NCBI RefSeq assembly: GCF_008692195.1
Contig: NZ_RXOM01000014.1
Location: 1 to 64,000, forward strand
Direction: 5' to 3'
Source of the DNA: Salegentibacter sp. R32
GTDB lineage: Bacteria > Bacteroidota > Bacteroidia > Flavobacteriales > Flavobacteriaceae
DNA: 64,000 nt
Shown here: positions 299 to 16,103 of the stretch, in pieces
How the letters are laid out: each line of letters begins with the position of its first letter
Position numbering within the stretch: the stretch's first letter is position 1
Made by a program: the position numbers and the translations under genes
The notes under the pieces: model-generated
Seen by the model: the letters and a program-made list of their open reading frames with translations, nothing else
Database searches by the model: none
Told to the model about the DNA's origin: nothing

Positions 299-571
299 GA
301 AATTGAAGTTGAAGTTGAAGCTGAAAATGAAGTCTGATTTTTAGCTTTTAGGCTTGAGTCTTTAGCGCACAGTTTACTGTTCACTTCCTTGTTAAAATGA
401 CTTGCTCAATACTACTTCCTGTTTCCAAAAGTCCAATACCTATCACCTCATCCCTACTCACTTGTCTTTAGGGGAGGGGAGTAAGCGAATACTCACGCCG
501 TTGCAGATGGGAAATCCCACTTAGTGAGTGTAAACAAGTACCTCACCTTACGGGTGTGCAAGCACCCTCGA
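299..571. repeat. Intergenic repeat block, copy 1
   Basis: The block opens with a GAAATTGAAGTTGAAG-like simple repeat. It continues with a ~110-base segment (about 329-438) and a 133-base module (439-571). The module recurs at 838-970 and 8077-8209, and the whole block recurs with few differences at about 7920-8209. No open frame is conserved across the copies, so it looks like a dispersed non-coding repeat. Confidence 0.8.
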
Positions 572-608
572 TAAATATCAAAAACTTCAAATTTAAATAA
601 TCAAATTC

Positions 609-837: not shown

Positions 838-970
838 CCTATCACCTCATCCCTACTCACTTGTCTTTAGGGGAGGGGAGTAAGCGAATACTCACGCCGT
901 TGCAGATGGGAAATCCCACTTAGTGAGTGTAAACAAGTACCTCACCTTACGGGTGTGCAAGCACCCTCGA
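838..970. repeat. 133-base repeat module, copy 2
   Basis: Same length as, and nearly identical to, 439-571 and 8077-8209. Here it lacks the 110-base segment that precedes the other two copies. The module includes the short inverted arms CACTTAGTGAGTG and CTCACTTG. Confidence 0.8.
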
Positions 971-1228
971 ATATTTCAAATCTAAACCGCTTCTCGATAC
1001 AATTTCATCCTCGGCTCGTCTAAAGGAGTGATTCCTGTAATTCCAATGAAAGAAAAAGTATCGAGAAGTAGTTGGGAGTTCTGATGCTGTTCTCGATACA
1101 GTTTTGTTTCTACTGTTTTTTTACTTTGTGAATCTTCTTAAGCTGATTTTATTTTATTACAAAAAAAACTAATAAATGTAAATTAACAGGAACTAAAAAA
1201 CTTTTCTAAACAAAATGAGGGAGTTTTA

Positions 1229-7417: not shown

Positions 7418-8313
7418 CCATAGGTTCTTGAGAAGAGGGTGATGTTTTATAGGTTTATATCATACGGAGTCCTTTGACACAGCTCAGGACCGTCAGGTCT
7501 TTTCCTACCGTAAAGATCCTTCACCCCGCTGTGCGCCTGTCTTGAGTAAAGCGGAAAGATTCTGGATGACAGTAGCTGACAGTAGCTGTTTTCAATATGG
7601 AGCGTTTTAAAGATTTTTTCTCTTCATTTTTACTTACGTAATCCTCTCCTTACAGTCGTGGGTTATGATAAAAACTAAGAAAAGAGTCTAGGCGCGAGAA
7701 ACTAGCTCTAAATTTGTTGATTGGCTCCGTAAAATTTTGTGAGCTATTTTCTTTAGGCCGGGGGTAAATGTCTAATGTTGTAGTTTTGTCTTATTTAGTA
7801 ACTTATTTTAATAATCAAATTCCAAACCTAGCATCCAACCTCCCCGTCGTCCTTCGATCCCCCTCCTCAGGAGGGGCTAGGGAAGGAATTTTATGGAATT
7901 AAGCCTTCGGCAGGGGATCAATGAAATTGAACTTGAAATCGAAATCGAAATCGAAGCTGAAAAATGAAGTCTGTTTTTTAGCTTTTAGCCTTGAGTCTTT
8001 AGTTCACAGTTTACTGTTCACTTCCTTCTGAAAATGACTTGCTCAATACTACTTCCTGTTTCCAAAAGTCCCAATACCTATCACCTCATCCCTACTCACT
8101 TGTCTTTAGGGGAGGGAAATAAGCGAATACCCACGCCGTTGCAGATGGGAACTCCCACTTAGTGAGTGTAAACAAGTACCTCACCTTACGGGTGTGCAAG
8201 CACCCTCGAATATTTCAAATTTTTAATAACAAATCTAAACCTAGCATCCAACCACCCCGTCCTTCGATCCCCCTCCTCAGGAGGGGCTAGGGGAGGATCA
8301 CCCCCACCGCCTA
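7418..8313. repeat. Repeat-filled intergenic region
   Basis: About 900 bases without a gene. From 7826 it holds the second repeat module. From about 7920 to 8209 it holds the near-complete second copy of the 299-571 block, including the 133-base module at 8077-8209. A shortened copy of the second module lies at 8233-8297, ending against the 3' end of the Cas12f-like gene. A short direct repeat GACAGTAGCT lies near 7570-7590. No terminator hairpin with a T-run was seen. Confidence 0.75.
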
Positions 8314-9411
8314 TCATCCCGAAATCACTTCAATTCCCGCCTTGTTGGCTTTATATTTTATTTTGGTCATCAACTCGAAGTAACTCCAGTTGCGAAGGAC
8401 AAACTCTTCTTCCTTGGCGATGCCGATTTTATCCTCTTGGTTTATCAATAGCAGCGTTCCCGCTTGGTGTTGGATACAAAAATCAATAAGGTGCCGGCTG
8501 TAGAGGTGCAGGCGGGAGCGGATGTAATTCTTCTCCGTTTCCTTGAACTTTTCAACCGCTTTGAGCTTGCGTTGACGCCCCTTGCCCGATCGGGCATAGG
8601 TGGCCCCGACCTGCGCCCGCTTGCGGGCGGACTGTATGGCCAGCCGGCGATGTAAAAATTCTTCCTTCGTCCCAATGTTCAGCCTGTGCTTGCCCACTTT
8701 GACCACCACCGGATGTTCCAAGGAGAGCGAGGCCTCCGCAACGATACCCGGTTGGAGGGCGTGCCGTTCTTTTTCCAGTTCAAAGACCGCCAGCCAAAAG
8801 GTCTTCCCGTCCTTAAGCTGAATATGGGAAGTACAGAGTTTGAGCTCTCCTTTTGCCGCACGGTGCAGCAGTTGGCGCTTATCGGTAAAATCCCGCCCTA
8901 AATAGGTTTTAAAAGGGAGCTGGAACAACTGAAAGCAAAAGGCCTTTTTTTCGGGATCATAGGCAAAACGTTTAAAGGCGTCCATACTAAAGGGAAAGGC
9001 CATGCCCCTGCGGAAGTTGTGCACCGAACGTTCACCCCGCCAGTATTCATCTTTGTAGCGGTGAAAGCTGTTCACTAAATTCTGGTTTAAGCTCGAGAGG
9101 ATATCGGTAGGCACCTGCCCTTTAAAACGATCGACCACCACGCGGTAGGTGGTATTCATCCGGGATCGGTTAAGGATCCCTTGTTCATCTTTCTTTTCAT
9201 CGGCAAGCTTTACCCGTACCCCTTCCGATAAGTAAAAAAACTCCTTGATCATTTCCTGTACATAAAGGTGGGAGGCGATAAGATTGGCCGCCCGGAAGCA
9301 GCGGTTCTGCCATTGGTAGAGTTTGCCAATCGCCTCTTTGCGTTCTTGTGGGGTGGGCAGGTCGATCACCACTTGTATTTTTCGTGTGAGTTTGATCGTG
9401 TTCTTTTTCAT
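8314..9411 (-). CDS. Nuclease-dead Cas12f/TnpB-like RNA-guided protein (dCas12f)
   Basis: The 365-residue basic protein has the TnpB/Cas12f layout: a helical and beta N-terminal half, then a RuvC-like region. Residues 222-235 (GIVAEASLSLEHPV) align with the RuvC-I strand that normally reads GIDLGxxxPV, so the catalytic Asp is Ser228. A bridge-helix-like basic segment follows (RRLAIQSARKRAQ, then GKGRQRKLKAVEKFKETEKN). Residues 319-327 (TLLLINQED) correspond to the RuvC-II strand that normally carries the catalytic Glu, here apparently Asn324. The typical NWSYFELMTKIKYKANKAGI segment then leads to the stop exactly where the zinc finger and RuvC-III would begin. The protein should therefore bind guide RNA and DNA without cutting. 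It starts one base after the sigma-factor stop, so the two are translationally coupled. No TnpA transposase lies nearby. The residue alignment is by eye. Confidence 0.85.
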   Translation of the reverse strand: MKKNTIKLTRKIQVVIDLPTPQERKEAIGKLYQWQNRCFRAANLIASHLYVQEMIKEFFYLSEGVRVKLADEKKDEQGILNRSRMNTTYRVVVDRFKGQVPTDILSSLNQNLVNSFHRYKDEYWRGERSVHNFRRGMAFPFSMDAFKRFAYDPEKKAFCFQLFQLPFKTYLGRDFTDKRQLLHRAAKGELKLCTSHIQLKDGKTFWLAVFELEKERHALQPGIVAEASLSLEHPVVVKVGKHRLNIGTKEEFLHRRLAIQSARKRAQVGATYARSGKGRQRKLKAVEKFKETEKNYIRSRLHLYSRHLIDFCIQHQAGTLLLINQEDKIGIAKEEEFVLRNWSYFELMTKIKYKANKAGIEVISG

Positions 9412-9412
9412 C

Positions 9413-10201
9413 TTAAGCCGATTTTACGGGTTGTGCGTCGTGCTGTTGCTGTAGGTAGTGATAGGCGGTACTAAAGGCTTGGTGCACCTGCTTGGGCGTT
9501 TGCCCCAGCTCTTCGGCAATCTGCGCAAAGGAGAGCTGCTGCTCGCAGCGCAGCCGGAAGACCTTGGACTGTGCCTCGGTAATGCCCCCTTCAAAGCTGA
9601 GCTTGGTCGCCTTCTTGGGGGCGGTCTCCAAGCTATCGCCTTGGTGGAGGATTTCTTTAATCGCCCCAATGGCCGCTTGTACGTCGTGGTACACCTGGAT
9701 GGTAGTGCTACCCAGGGCCTGGCCTATGGCCTTGTATTCAAACCCGAACTTCAGGCAAAGTTCGATCAAGCGCTGCTGCTTGGGGGCGAGCAGGGGCAGC
9801 ACCTTTTCCACCTGTTCCAGGGCCTGCTGTTGTTCCTCTTGCTCCCGCAGGTGTGCCTCGTCCTTAGCGACATCTGCTTTGAGTAAGTAGTCGTTATAAT
9901 TTTCATAATACTCCAAGCGGTTAATCGTCCGGTAAAACCGGTTTCGGGGCCGGGTAAAATAGGAAATACACTCGCGCTTCATCACCAAGCGCAGGAAAAA
10001 GAAGATATGCTTGGGACTTTCGAGGGTCTCGCGGTGCAGCCAGAGCTTTAGAAAGCAGTCCTGTACCAGGTTTTCGACCACAAACTCGTCTTCGAGCCAT
10101 CGCCGACCGAAATGAAACAGCATCCGCCCGTACCTCTGGTAGAGGTAGGTCAGCGCCAAAGGATCGCCCAGTTTTAATTGGGTATAAGGGTGTGTTTGCA
10201 T
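9413..10201 (-). CDS. ECF-type sigma factor with extra C-terminal HTH, partner of dCas12f
   Basis: The 262-residue protein has a sigma-2 region at ~10-83 (LYQRYGRMLFHFGRRWLEDE, ENLVQDCFLKLWLHRETL) and a sigma-4 region at ~128-185 (LAPKQQRLIELCLKFGFEYK, AIGQALGSTTIQVYHDV). It is ~70 residues longer than ordinary ECF factors. Residues ~205-252 (TEAQSKVFRLRCEQQLSFAQ, IAEELGQTPKQVHQAFSTAY) form a second sigma-4-like helix-turn-helix. No anti-sigma gene is adjacent. Instead the dCas12f gene follows after one base. From established knowledge, ECF factors bring RNA polymerase to promoters. I infer that this one is recruited to DNA by the dCas12f-RNA complex, perhaps through the added domain. The gene is clearly richer in G+C than most neighbours, consistent with transfer of the pair. 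Confidence 0.85.
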   Translation of the reverse strand: MQTHPYTQLKLGDPLALTYLYQRYGRMLFHFGRRWLEDEFVVENLVQDCFLKLWLHRETLESPKHIFFFLRLVMKRECISYFTRPRNRFYRTINRLEYYENYNDYLLKADVAKDEAHLREQEEQQQALEQVEKVLPLLAPKQQRLIELCLKFGFEYKAIGQALGSTTIQVYHDVQAAIGAIKEILHQGDSLETAPKKATKLSFEGGITEAQSKVFRLRCEQQLSFAQIAEELGQTPKQVHQAFSTAYHYLQQQHDAQPVKSA

Positions 10202-10231
10202 AAGTGTTCGCTTTTAAGCAGGGGGAATCCC

Positions 10232-10247
10232 CTTAACTTATGAGTTA
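10232..10247. promoter_or_regulatory. Perfect inverted repeat in the sigma-gene leader
   Basis: TTAACT-TATG-AGTTAA is a 6-bp-arm palindrome ~30 bases upstream of the sigma start codon. It is flanked by GGGGGAATCCCC (about 10221-10232). It may be an operator or a leader hairpin. Confidence 0.3.
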
Positions 10248-10336
10248 ATTAAATCATTGATTTTTGCGAACCCTTTAATAGCGTTAAAGAAGTTAAGCTT
10301 TGAAAAGAAGAAAAGTAGCAGCCCTTAGTGGCAAAC

Positions 10337-10507
10337 AAAAAGGCGTGGATACTCAACTTACCAACCTGAGGTACTGGTATACCATGCAACGATAAGTGAG
10401 CCCACGCCCCGGGTCGTGAGCATCCTTGCTTATCATCTCGTTGCAAAAATTACCAGTTTTCAGATTGAGAATCAAAGCGAATGCTTCTAATATTTTTACT
10501 TAAAGAA
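10337..10507 (-). ncRNA. Candidate guide RNA of the dCas12f-sigma system
   Basis: This is a structured, non-coding stretch upstream of the operon, transcribed in the same direction. Nested helices are visible. The outer arms are CTGGTA/TACCAG (10451-10456 with 10374-10379). Inside them are the perfect TGCAACGA/TCGTTGCA (10438-10445 with 10385-10392) and the hairpin GCUCACG/CGUGGGC (10415-10421 with 10400-10406). A long-range pair, 8 of 9, joins 10465-10473 to 10348-10356. A competing 7-bp helix joins 10402-10408 to 10342-10348, extended by 10393-10400 with the UAAGUUGAG segment. It is followed by UUUUU (10337-10341), as in an intrinsic terminator or a pseudoknot. This complexity and position fit a Cas12f/TnpB-type guide scaffold. 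Where scaffold ends and guide begins cannot be read. The start is inferred from the promoter box, and the plus-strand orientation is not fully excluded. Confidence 0.55.
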
Positions 10508-10513
10508 GTTTCG

Positions 10514-10521
10514 CAAATATA
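10514..10521 (-). promoter_or_regulatory. -7 promoter box TATATTTG for the structured RNA/sigma operon
   Basis: On the minus strand the sequence reads TATATTTGCG, matching TAnnTTTG. A second identical octamer lies at 10534-10541, so either may serve. No clean -33 TTTG at the usual spacing is present for either box. The predicted transcript would start near 10507 and run through the structured element toward the sigma gene. Confidence 0.45.
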
Positions 10522-10556
10522 TTAATTGTAACCCAAATATATAAAAAACATTCAAT

Positions 10557-10621: not shown

Positions 10622-10849
10622 ATGGAACTTAATAAAACTTATCTTGAAAAATTTGGAGCAAATGTTCTCAAACGAAGAACAGCACTTAAGTTAAGTTACA
10701 GACAATTAGCACAAAAGTGTGATATAGATTTTAGTGCCATTTCGAAAATTGAAAAGGGTCAAAAAAGCTTAGAGTTTCAAACCATCATTGAATTAGCAAA
10801 AGGCTTGGAGATTCATCCCAAAGAGTTGTTTGATTTTGAAATTGAATAG
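10622..10849 (+). CDS. XRE-family HTH regulator
   Basis: The 75-residue protein is essentially a single Cro/CI-type helix-turn-helix: NVLKRRTALKLSYRQLAQKC, then DIDFSAISKIEKGQKSLEFQ and the IELAKGLEIHPKELF helix typical of the family. It has no sensor or peptidase domain. It is divergent from the structured RNA/sigma/dCas12f operon, sharing a ~100-base AT-rich promoter region with the TGTAG-N10-CTACA palindrome. It could therefore control itself and possibly that operon. It could equally be an orphan regulator. Confidence 0.85.
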   Translation: MELNKTYLEKFGANVLKRRTALKLSYRQLAQKCDIDFSAISKIEKGQKSLEFQTIIELAKGLEIHPKELFDFEIE

Positions 10850-10887: not shown

Positions 10888-11778
10888 ATGAAAAATTTAT
10901 TAAAAGTACTTGTGGTATTCCTGGTGGCTTGCAGTCCGGCTCAGGATAGAATTGAAAATAAGTTGATGCAGTGTAGCTACCAAAGCTTTCAGGATGGGGG
11001 CGTACAGCTTCAGCAACTCATGCACGATTATGAAAACCTGCTCATCAAAGAAGGCTTGTTAAGAGATGTTACCGGAGCAAGTTATCGACGCATGCTTTCG
11101 CAGTTAAGCGAAGAAAACAACATAAAGGGAAAAGCTTTGTATAGTTTTATGGAGCAATGGTCGGGATTGGAAAAGCAGGAAGAATTTGACATGCAAAATT
11201 GCGTTCAACAAATACTTTCAGATTCCACACAGTATAAAAGTCATACTTTTCTAAAATTTCAAGCGACGATGGAAAAGGAGGTCACTCTATTTGGCGATTT
11301 CCAACCGGAGGTATTGTCAACAAAAATGTTAGGGATCTTATCGGCAAAAGATTTGGAGCTTGATTTCTATAAGTTCAGGGTTTTCTTCTTGCTGGATATG
11401 GCATTTGCGAAGAATAAGCTCCCCCAAGACTTACCTCCCTCTACAGCACCTAGGGAAACGGAAAACCCTTTAGAAGTATACCTAGACGCTGAAAATAGGG
11501 TAAAAGTCGATGGAAAAGAGATTGAACAAACGCATGTCCTTTCGTACCTATTAGAGGAGTATAAAGCGCATCCCAATAAAACACTACTAATCGTTAAAAC
11601 CGATCCAAAAACGATGTATGCCGATTATATAGCGCTTCAGAATAAATTGATTAAGGTAATCAACAGCGTACGGGAAAAGGCTGCTCAAAAGGATTACGGA
11701 AAGAAATATTCTGAGTTAACTGAAGCGCAAAAGGAGCTACTTCGTGAAAAATACCCGGAACCGGTCTTGAGGGAGTAA
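10888..11778 (+). CDS. Lipoprotein with C-terminal ExbD/TolR-like domain
   Basis: The N-terminus MKNLLKVLVVFLVACSPAQ has a lipobox ending at Cys15. Residues ~20-185 are helical and unrecognised. Residues ~193-296 resemble the periplasmic half of Bacteroidota ExbD proteins: VYLDAENRVKVDGKEIEQ, TLLIVKTDPKTMYADYIALQ, and the tail KKYSELTEAQKELLREKYPE, which mirrors the ExbD ending. The ExbD transmembrane helix is absent, so this would be a membrane-tethered copy of the domain that contacts TonB-type partners or peptidoglycan. It begins 38 bases after the XRE gene on the same strand. The similarity is by eye. The function is unknown, and energy transduction by itself is unlikely without the membrane helix. 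Confidence 0.6.
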   Translation: MKNLLKVLVVFLVACSPAQDRIENKLMQCSYQSFQDGGVQLQQLMHDYENLLIKEGLLRDVTGASYRRMLSQLSEENNIKGKALYSFMEQWSGLEKQEEFDMQNCVQQILSDSTQYKSHTFLKFQATMEKEVTLFGDFQPEVLSTKMLGILSAKDLELDFYKFRVFFLLDMAFAKNKLPQDLPPSTAPRETENPLEVYLDAENRVKVDGKEIEQTHVLSYLLEEYKAHPNKTLLIVKTDPKTMYADYIALQNKLIKVINSVREKAAQKDYGKKYSELTEAQKELLREKYPEPVLRE

Positions 11779-13733: not shown

Positions 13734-16103
13734 ATGACAACAACTTCTCACAATAAATTAGTTTCTTTTATTTGGTCCATCGCAGACGATTGTTTACGTG
13801 ATGTTTATGTACGTGGTAAATACCGTGATGTAATATTACCTATGGTCGTTTTAAGGAGGTTAGATGCTTTATTAGAACCTACCAAAGATGCCGTGATGGA
13901 AGAGCTTACGTTTCAAAAAGAAGAAGCCGGGTTTACCGAGTGGGATGAAAGTGGCTTACGAGAGGCTTCCGGTTAGGTGTTTTACAATATTAGTAAGTGG
14001 ACACTCCAAAAATTATACAATACCGCGACCAATTCTCAGCAAATTTTACAGGCCAATGTCGAAGATTATTTAAACGGCTTTAGCCCAAATGTGAAAGAGA
14101 TCATCGATAAGTTTAAATTGAAAGCTCAGATTCGCCATATGGCGAATAAAGATGTGTTGTTAGACGTATTAGAAAAATTTACTTCGCCTTATATTAACCT
14201 AACCCCTTTTGAAAAAGAAGATCCGGAGGGCAGAAAGCTACCTGCACTTTCCAATTTAGGGATGGGCTATGTGTTTGAAGAATTGATCCGGAAATTTAAT
14301 GAAGAAAACAATGAAGAAGCCGGAGAACACTTTACGCCAAGAGAGGTGATTGAATTAATGACGCATTTGGTATTTGACCCTATCAAAGAAAACTTACCCC
14401 CGGTGATGACCATTTACGATCCCGCTTGTGGGAGCGGTGGTATGCTTACCGAAGCGCAAAACTTTATAAAAGATGAAGAAGGAGCCATTAGGGCAACGGG
14501 CGATGTTTTTCTCTATGGAAAAGAAATTAACGATGAAACCTACGCCATTTGTAAGAGTGATATGATGATTAAAGGAAACGATCCGGCGAACATCCGAGTA
14601 GGTTCTACGCTTTCTACCGATGAGTTTTCAGGGACGAACTTTAATTTTATGTTGTCCAATCCACCATATGGAAAATCTTGGAGTAGCGAGCAAAAATATA
14701 TCAAAGACGGAAAGGAAGTCATCGATCCCCGCTTTAAAATTAACTTATTCGATTATTGGGGAAATACCGAAGAAATAGATGCAGTACCCAGATCTTCAGA
14801 CGGGCAGCTGCTGTTTTTGATGGAAATGGTGAATAAAATGAAACCGCTTCACCAAAACCCATCAGGTTCTCGTATTGCTTCCGTACATAATGGATCGAGT
14901 TTATTCACCGGTGACGCAGGTAGTGGTGAAAGTAATATTAGAAGATACCTTATCGAAAATGATTTGTTAGAAGCTATCATTCAATTGCCCAATAATTTAT
15001 TCTACAATACCGGCATTACCACTTATATCTGGTTGTTAAGCAATCATAAACCCGAACTTCGAAAAGGCAAAGTACAACTGATTGATGCAGGAGAATTGTA
15101 CCAAAAACTCCGTAAGAACTTAGGAAATAAAAACTGTGAATTTGCCCCGGAACATATTACCGAAATCACTAAGGTTTACACACAATTACAAGCGGTAGAA
15201 AGGGAAACCAATCCGGAAACCAAGGCAGCACTTCCCGGAATCGCTTCCAAAATTTTCGATAATGAAGATTTTGGCTATTATAAAGTAACCATAGAGCGAC
15301 CACAACGATTAAAAGCGCAATTTACTTCAGAAAAAATAGAAGCTTTACGCTACGATAAACAGCTTACCGAATTGATGCAATGGGCATATCAGGAATTTGG
15401 TGATCAAGTGTATACAAATTTAAAAGGACTCCAAGAGCCAATCTTAGCTTATGCCGAAGCTCAGGAACTTAATTTGAGCAGTAAGCACAAAAAGAAATTG
15501 CTAAGCCCGAATACCTGGGAGAAACAACGAGAATTGGTGCAATTAGCTGAACACTTATTCGCTGAATTAGGAGACGAAATTTTTACCGATTTTAATCAAT
15601 TCAGCAAAAAAGTAAATCAAACCTTAAAGAACTTAGCACTAAAACCTTCTGCTAGTGAGAAAAAAGCAGTATTGCAGGCCGTAAGTTGGTATGATGCCGA
15701 AGCGGAAAAAGTGAATAAAAAGAAACATAAGTTCACCGATGAAAAATTGAGTACACTCTTAGCGCATTTCAATTGCAAAGAAAAAGAGCTGGCGCACTTT
15801 GGGTATTTCGCTACCGGCAAACCGGGAGAATACCTGGAATATGAAACCGAGAGTGACTTGCGCGATTATGAAAACGTGCCGCTAAAAGAAAGAATACATA
15901 CCTATTTTCTAGAAGAAGTAAACCCACACGTTCCAGAAGCTTGGATCAACCTCGATAAAACTAAAATAGGTTACGAAATTAGCTTTAATAAATATTTCTA
16001 TAAGCACACACCACTTCGAGATATCGAAGAGGTGACCAAAGATATTTTAGAGTTAGAGCAACAAAGCGAAGGTCTTATTGCAGAAATATTAAATTTAGCA
16101 TAG
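13734..16103 (+). pseudogene. hsdM: Type I DNA methyltransferase HsdM, interrupted by an amber stop
   Basis: One continuous frame encodes a full-length HsdM (~789 codons) except for a TAG at codon 81 (13974-13976). Upstream is the N-terminal helical domain (KLVSFIWSIADDCLRDVYVR, YRDVILPMVVLRRLD). Downstream the same frame continues without any gap (VFYNISKWTLQKLY). The full-frame positions of the methyltransferase motifs are DPACGSGG at 229-236 (S-adenosylmethionine binding) and NPPYG at 309-313 (catalytic). The residue before VFYN is commonly Gln in relatives as I recall them, so CAG to TAG is the simplest origin. The N-terminal domain would then be lost unless the stop is suppressed or translation restarts at GTG 13977. 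The gene precedes rhuM, hsdS and hsdR on the same strand. Confidence 0.88.

Follow-up and report, generated by a model that had tools for sequence, protein, structure and literature searches.

A gene pair on the minus strand of the 64,000-nucleotide stretch of Salegentibacter sp. R32 analysed here (contig NZ_RXOM01000014.1; hereafter the window) encodes a nuclease-deactivated Cas12f protein (dCas12f) and a sigma factor. We propose that this locus is an RNA-guided transcription activator and that its main native target in the Flavobacteriaceae studied is a structured leader placed before susCD operons and often before the activator's own operon; from sequence comparison across genomes, we put the probability of this reading at roughly 0.7. 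By homology, the two proteins belong to a kind already known, in which dCas12f and sigma act together in RNA-guided transcription, and their genes lie as follows.

8314-9411, minus strand: dCas12f, 365 amino acids (open reading frame; phmmer match to 9n9c; alignments to Cas12f nucleases; Foldseek)
9413-10201, minus strand: extracytoplasmic function (ECF)-type sigma factor, partner of dCas12f, 262 amino acids (Pfam; phmmer match to 9n9q chain C)

In the window's list of open reading frames the sigma gene comes first and a single base (9412) separates it from the Cas12f-like gene, in agreement with a first-pass annotation of this DNA. Residues 1-365 of the Cas12f-like protein were matched by phmmer to PDB entry 9n9c (E 1.4e-181), with Cas12f nucleases as the next-ranked matches, and 256 of the 365 residues (70%) are identical, without gaps, to the 'Nuclease-deactivated Cas12f' chain of 9n9c, 9n9m, 9n9o and 9n9q. 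Pfam gave no match for this protein, and the NCBIfam model guided_TnpB matched at 6.9e-14, under the family cut-off. A structure-based search with Foldseek placed 9n9m (dCas12f-guide RNA-DNA complex with a partial R-loop) and 9n9c (dCas12f-guide RNA complex) first; the AlphaFold model used has a mean predicted local distance difference test score (pLDDT) of 56.4, which is low confidence, and the ranking adds weakly to the sequence match. Judged by homology, the product of 8314-9411 belongs to the known dCas12f kind, and the family first assigned to it was right.

The first-pass annotation had also described the protein as lacking catalytic residues and the C-terminal part. The RuvC-I aspartate of Cas12f 9nzo (GVDLG) aligns to Ser228, a column that holds serine in 26 of 27 aligned homologues and threonine in one. 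The alignment to 9nzo (506 residues) ends at residue 414 of that nuclease, and the window protein is without the corresponding C-terminal part, in which we presume the third RuvC residue to lie. Both of these losses stand. The RuvC-II glutamate is ambiguous: the alignment to 7wju sets it on E326, a column that is glutamate in 23 of 27 aligned homologues, whereas the alignment to 9nzo does not, and this residue may be retained. The nucleases 9nzo, 8hr5 and 7wju are thus homologous to the window protein over its C-terminal two thirds or half, but differ from it in the RuvC-I aspartate and in the C-terminal part, and the window is free of CRISPR-like repeats. No direct repeats of at least 22 nucleotides within 120 bp occur anywhere in the window, so that neither the catalytic residues nor short-spaced repeats place the protein in CRISPR-Cas12f (type V-F). 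The absence of a CRISPR array, and that of a transposase and of cas1/cas2, had been noted before; none of the eight window proteins to which the scan for such genes was confined belongs to a transposase or cas family, and three of the eight have no Pfam match.

The sigma partner matches Pfam Sigma70_r2 (8.4e-10) and r4_2 (7e-10), scores above the cut-off of the NCBIfam sigma70-ECF superfamily and was matched by phmmer to chain C ('RpoE') of 9n9q over residues 6-257 of 261 (E 6.3e-75), an entry that contains dCas12f and RpoE together. A scan of species genomes for dCas12f yielded 41 further loci; one (L043, 68 residues at 38%) was too weak and was dropped. Sigma adjoins dCas12f in 38 of the remaining 40, and both misses (L019 and L040) begin at a contig end. 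The nearest sigma proteins among the named loci are from Mesonia (L006, L020). The idea of a dCas12f-sigma family acting in RNA-guided transcription, put forward from the letters of the window, is supported at the level of homology by 9n9c, 9n9m and 9n9q. In this family dCas12f and sigma recruit RNA polymerase, and the PDB entries show dCas12f with guide RNA, DNA and RpoE. Entries 9n9c to 9n9q are said to come from a dCas12f-sigmaE system of Flagellimonas taeanensis; a 2025 preprint on it reportedly describes a 5'-G motif, start sites at a fixed distance from the R-loop and no promoter motif. In a literature search of titles and the starts of abstracts, with preprints not covered, none of the papers listed describes a dCas12f-sigma system.

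The first-pass annotation had missed one element, a conserved RNA behind the dCas12f stop codon. It reads GAGGGTGCTTGTACACCC...ACTCACTAAATGC...GCATATACAAC and is followed by a short stretch that is often GCGTGGGCTCTCTTAT. On the evidence of a covariance model and of paired changes, the dCas12f guide RNA lies there, at 8120-8210 on the minus strand, and the window holds two more copies.

8120-8210, minus strand: guide RNA, scaffold 8138-8210 and guide 8120-8137, GGCGTGGGTATTCGCTTA (model R2, 79.3 bits; compensatory changes in the scaffold)
881-971, minus strand: further guide RNA copy, guide 881-898, GGCGTGAGTATTCGCTTA (model R2; pattern)
482-572, minus strand: further guide RNA copy, guide 482-499, GGCGTGAGTATTCGCTTA (model R2; pattern)

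The covariance model of this RNA (R2) matched all 36 dCas12f genomes, with 106 matches. Among 199 genomes of the family it matched 10, which are all nine with dCas12f and, weakly, G056. In an alignment of 32 hand-chosen guide RNAs (A3), compensatory changes were found at 9 of 18 scaffold pairs, or at 11 of 20 when two pairs inside the guide are included. Leeuwenhoekiella and Salegentibacter carry several copies in a row with differing end stretches, as guides would have, and in multi-copy genomes the end stretch is far more variable than the scaffold.

Upstream of the sigma gene stands the structured non-coding element, with its -7 box, that had been seen in the first pass. Its parts and its surroundings are the following.

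10334-10517, minus strand: structured RNA leader of the sigma-dCas12f operon, with a covarying long hairpin and a competing terminator-like hairpin (model R1, 203.7 bits)
10337-10360, minus strand: 3' arm of the terminator-like hairpin (10342-10360) and T-run (10337-10341) (read from the sequence)
10392-10407, minus strand: protospacer, 15/16 match to the guide of a second locus on contig C48, with a G at 10408 on its 5' side (genome mismatch search)
10514-10541, minus strand: two TAnnTTTG promoter-like boxes, 10514-10521 and 10534-10541 (read from the sequence)
10622-10849, plus strand: divergent Xre-type helix-turn-helix (HTH) regulator, 75 amino acids, adjoining the leader (Pfam HTH_3, 8e-12)

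We take TAnnTTTG to be the Bacteroidota -7 box. Across 17 aligned leaders, 94.9% of the cells in the long hairpin are standard pairs, and its covariation score is 0.241, compared with 0.124 for shuffles, none of 500 of which reached it; of the five measures in this test, four were reached by no shuffle and one, the number of further pair types, by 90 of 500. Alignment A2 leaves out L017, which has the same letters as L005, and L021, which is partial. In 91 leaders 97.3% of cells pair and both sides have changed in 416 cells (0 of 500 shuffles), counts that lean towards the model, whose own structure guided the fitting of this alignment (A5); L161 to L171 lie outside the search that gave it. 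A second fold reuses some bases of the long hairpin and forms 16 pairs, in which 272 of 272 cells are paired (1421 of 1456, summed, in the 91 leaders), as a hairpin followed by a T-run. Sliding this fold by 1-3 columns lowers its pairing to 40-58%. The window leader alone folds at -49 kcal/mol, an energy as low as which was found in 2 of 200 shuffles. No Rfam family matched the leader at threshold, and the leader is absent from Rfam 15; at E up to 5 there were two chance-like hits below threshold, of which one, SNORA35, was on the opposite strand. The leader resembles attenuators and riboswitches in having two mutually exclusive folds, one of them a hairpin and then a T-run, and differs from them in its lack of an Rfam match at threshold and of a known ligand and in carrying a protospacer for an RNA-guided sigma factor.

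The genome of this strain (4.08 Mb, 68 contigs) holds a second sigma-dCas12f locus on contig C48 (L002), whose dCas12f is 70% and whose sigma 98% identical to the window's, and four guide RNA copies carrying GCGTGGGCTCTCTTAT lie behind the C48 dCas12f. At up to two mismatches the C48 guide has eight sites in the genome. Four are its own guide RNA copies; the others are C66:4339-4354 (no mismatch), window 10392-10407 (one), C12:28252-28267 (two) and C33:76138-76153 (two). The sites on C66, in the window (C14) and on C12 fall one in each of the genome's three R1 leaders, of which that on C12 is a weak match (88 bits); the C33 site does not coincide with a leader. Some 440 nucleotides beyond the C66 leader come a SusC/RagA protein, SusD and an M16 peptidase, and this leader, like that of the window, has a divergent HTH_3 protein. 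Within the leader the common guide sequence reads (G)GCGTGGGCTC[T/A]CTTAT, and in the window it forms part of the terminator-like hairpin's 5' arm (10389-10408). A 5' G beside the protospacer is presumably the motif of the dCas12f-sigma family; a genomic target that has it is present for the C48 guide, but none was found at up to three mismatches for the three guides of the window.

Model R1 found leaders in 33 of the 36 dCas12f genomes, with 83 matches, the L024 genome lying outside this search. A fragment (G025:C38) was left out and 82 were analysed. Downstream of these stand SusC (42), sigma-dCas12f (25), a contig end (5) or other genes (10). When the best guide of the same genome was compared with the site next to the G, 41 of the 82 leaders in the 33 genomes matched at 14 or more of 16 positions and six at all 16, whereas shuffled guides reached a match of 14 in 1 of 2000 trials. 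By class, such matches were found for 11 of 25 leaders before sigma-dCas12f, 21 of 42 before SusC and 9 of the remaining 15. Some scores are lowered by guides that were mis-parsed or lack a clean boundary (e.g. G009:C28:67815, G020:C1:1332432). In one genome, G032, the guide (GGCGTGTCATCCCACTT) and a susCD leader (GGCGTGTCATCCGACTT) are both divergent and fit at 15 of 16 positions. Searching 10 genomes with GGCGTGTTCATCT returned two guide RNAs of G020 and one leader of another genome, G026; GCGTGWCATC, in 10 genomes, returned guide RNAs of G022, G023 and G024, the guide and the leader of G032 and one site in G027. The leaders L132 and L161 precede a weakly sigma-like protein (identity 21% and 19%, respectively); the stretch examined contains no dCas12f, and in L161 SusC follows the sigma-like protein.

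Several observations weigh against the proposed reading. The other 41 of the 82 leaders match the guides of their own genome at fewer than 14 of 16 positions, among them 11 of the 12 leaders of five Leeuwenhoekiella genomes. Guide sets dealt among genomes fit equally well (12.71, against 12.83 for the own genome; 597 of 2000 permutations were as high). Guide and leader are both conserved, and this permutation, over all 82 leaders, detects no genome-specific co-evolution between them. For the divergent guides found in G020 and in G022 to G024, no leader is present in the same genome. In the window itself, none of the three guides (GGCGTGRGTATTCGCTTA) has a genomic site at up to three mismatches inside an R1 leader; apart from their own copies, they match just two places, on C23 and C33, neither of them in such a leader. 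Covariation in the terminator-like fold is not above shuffles (119 of 500 were as high), and because its columns vary little this fold rests on conservation rather than on covariation. Finally, leaders in genomes that have no dCas12f keep the protospacer sequence too, and its conservation is therefore no evidence of targeting. The first-pass view of the locus as an RNA-guided operon is supported, at the level of homology, for the kind of system; the part given to the structured element is most likely not the right one, and the window's own guides have no target at up to three mismatches in the assembly.

A different explanation of the match is that the GCGTGGGCTCTCTTAT stretch is a fixed 3' part of the RNA and no guide, and resembles the leader by common descent or a shared fold. 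This would agree with the near-identity of the stretch in many guide RNAs and with the permutation result, which shows no genome-specific fit. However, the stretch varies far more than the scaffold and is wholly different in some Salegentibacter copies (possibly decayed), G032 has a divergent guide together with a matching divergent leader, and the position of the stretch is what we take to be the guide position in Cas12f RNAs. We regard a fixed 3' part as unlikely.

According to the proposed activator model, a guide RNA derived from the 3' end of the operon transcript would load dCas12f, and the complex would bind leader DNA at the protospacer with its 5' G. dCas12f would then bring sigma and RNA polymerase, and transcription would start behind the R-loop. 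In this strain the guide that fits is that of the C48 copy, which matches the susCD leader on C66 exactly and the leader before the window operon with one mismatch, and the C48 system would thus activate the window operon. Where leaders stand before sigma-dCas12f, the arrangement would give positive feedback. Alternatively, dCas12f with its guide RNA could chiefly be a repressor, a roadblock on the leader that stops transcripts from the leader promoter, while sigma serves elsewhere. The protospacer does lie inside the leader, downstream of the promoter-like boxes, and TldR proteins, which are nuclease-dead relatives of TnpB, are described as RNA-guided repressors (PMC13418256). TldR shares with the window protein its origin as an exapted nuclease-dead relative of RNA-guided nucleases that sets transcription, but TldR represses, while the window protein has a co-encoded sigma factor and is closer to Cas12f. 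By sequence the window dCas12f is a distant relative of the TnpB type, and its partner argues against a TldR-type repressor, as do the constancy of the sigma gene beside dCas12f (its two misses being contig ends) and the presence of both proteins in 9n9q. A repressor or roadblock is quite unlikely in our judgement.

The leader is not confined to genomes with the activator. Among the 199 family genomes it was found in 36 and dCas12f in nine, the leader being present in 9 of 9 genomes with dCas12f and in 27 of 190 without it, where 'without' denotes no match to the window protein at E 1e-30 or better. The hypergeometric chance of this overlap is about 8e-8, though the genomes are not independent. 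Eight of the 27 have weak leader matches only (below 90 bits), and 26 have no R2 guide RNA, G056 accounting for the one weak match. Of 42 leader hits in these genomes, 21, mostly the stronger ones, were examined: 16 precede SusC and the other five are all from G054 (L229 to L233). None of those five has a SusC match downstream, and small open reading frames of about 110-125 codons begin 80-195 nucleotides behind four of them. A divergent open reading frame of 60-180 codons starts 20-150 nucleotides upstream of 73 of the 82 leaders and of all 21 from genomes without dCas12f; 29 of the 82 have an open reading frame matched by BLAST to two HTH seed proteins, both HTH_3. The leader thus has the appearance of a control element of uptake operons that stands on its own, is linked to a regulator and is read by the guide, and its presence without dCas12f implies that the guide exploits an element that exists independently of it.

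Because a common guide matches the protospacer inside the leader, and because the leader occurs without dCas12f, the structured element is most likely better read as a target than as the system's own RNA. That the element is itself the guide RNA, as the title of the first-pass annotation implied and as its promoter-like boxes, its position upstream of sigma, its length of about 180 nucleotides and its T-run end might suggest, is very improbable and was rejected, since the parts that vary most do so as covarying helices, the C48 copy and many other loci have no such element upstream of sigma, and the element occurs in 27 family genomes without dCas12f, 26 of them without an R2 guide RNA; instead, it most likely holds the site matched by the common guide.

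With the leader as target, the position of the protospacer suggests a specific consequence. The R-loop would cover the 5' arm of the terminator, so that any start behind it would yield RNA that lacks this arm, in which the terminator cannot form and which would escape termination. The distance from the start of the protospacer to the T-run is 47-73 nucleotides in 103 leaders and 63-72 in 97 of these, and the segment from G to T-run folds with a median energy of -27.6 kcal/mol, or -6.6 kcal/mol without the first 20 nucleotides; these energies describe geometry only and are no proof of termination, because shorter pieces always fold less well. Tentatively, and with the odds somewhat against it, we suggest that an attenuator RNA family linked to divergent regulators controls susCD operons in the Flavobacteriaceae and that dCas12f-sigma evolved as its key, with one guide for most leaders of a genome, bypass of attenuation by the R-loop and feedback on itself.

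The two loci of this strain are related in a patchwork manner. DNA identity between the window and C48 is 93-100% in the sigma gene region (9381-10160), 48-78% in 60-base windows of the dCas12f body (8421-9320) and 88-98% in the dCas12f end and the DNA behind it (8181-8420). This mosaic (window 8181-10220) has the look of gene conversion or exchange. At its left end (1-319 and 482-971) the window matches the start of C48 at 91%, and the two guide RNA copies there lie about 7 kb from dCas12f; this end is perhaps a duplicated or interrupted copy of a C48-like region. Neighbours of the C48 locus (L061:4128-6216) encode a patatin-like phospholipase and a DncV-like/SMODS nucleotidyltransferase, a pair that we take to resemble a cyclic-oligonucleotide-based antiphage signalling system (CBASS). 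In the window, an ExbD/TolR-like protein is encoded at 10888-11778, beside the HTH regulator of the leader, and a type I methylase gene (HsdM_N + N6_Mtase; 13734-16103) is split by an in-frame stop after 80 codons.

Compared with the solved dCas12f-sigma system, to which both proteins correspond over nearly their whole length, what differs here is that putative native targets have been worked out, by comparison of sequences, as a structured leader with a terminator-like fold. The analysis adds a proposal from 36 genomes for the natural role of such a system, comprising its guide, target, target genes and feedback arrangement, and a family of structured leaders that Rfam 15 does not contain. 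The system would switch on uptake operons together with its own synthesis. If the bypass is true, a single DNA site would bring RNA guidance and RNA attenuation together, and this would be a new form of bacterial operon control.

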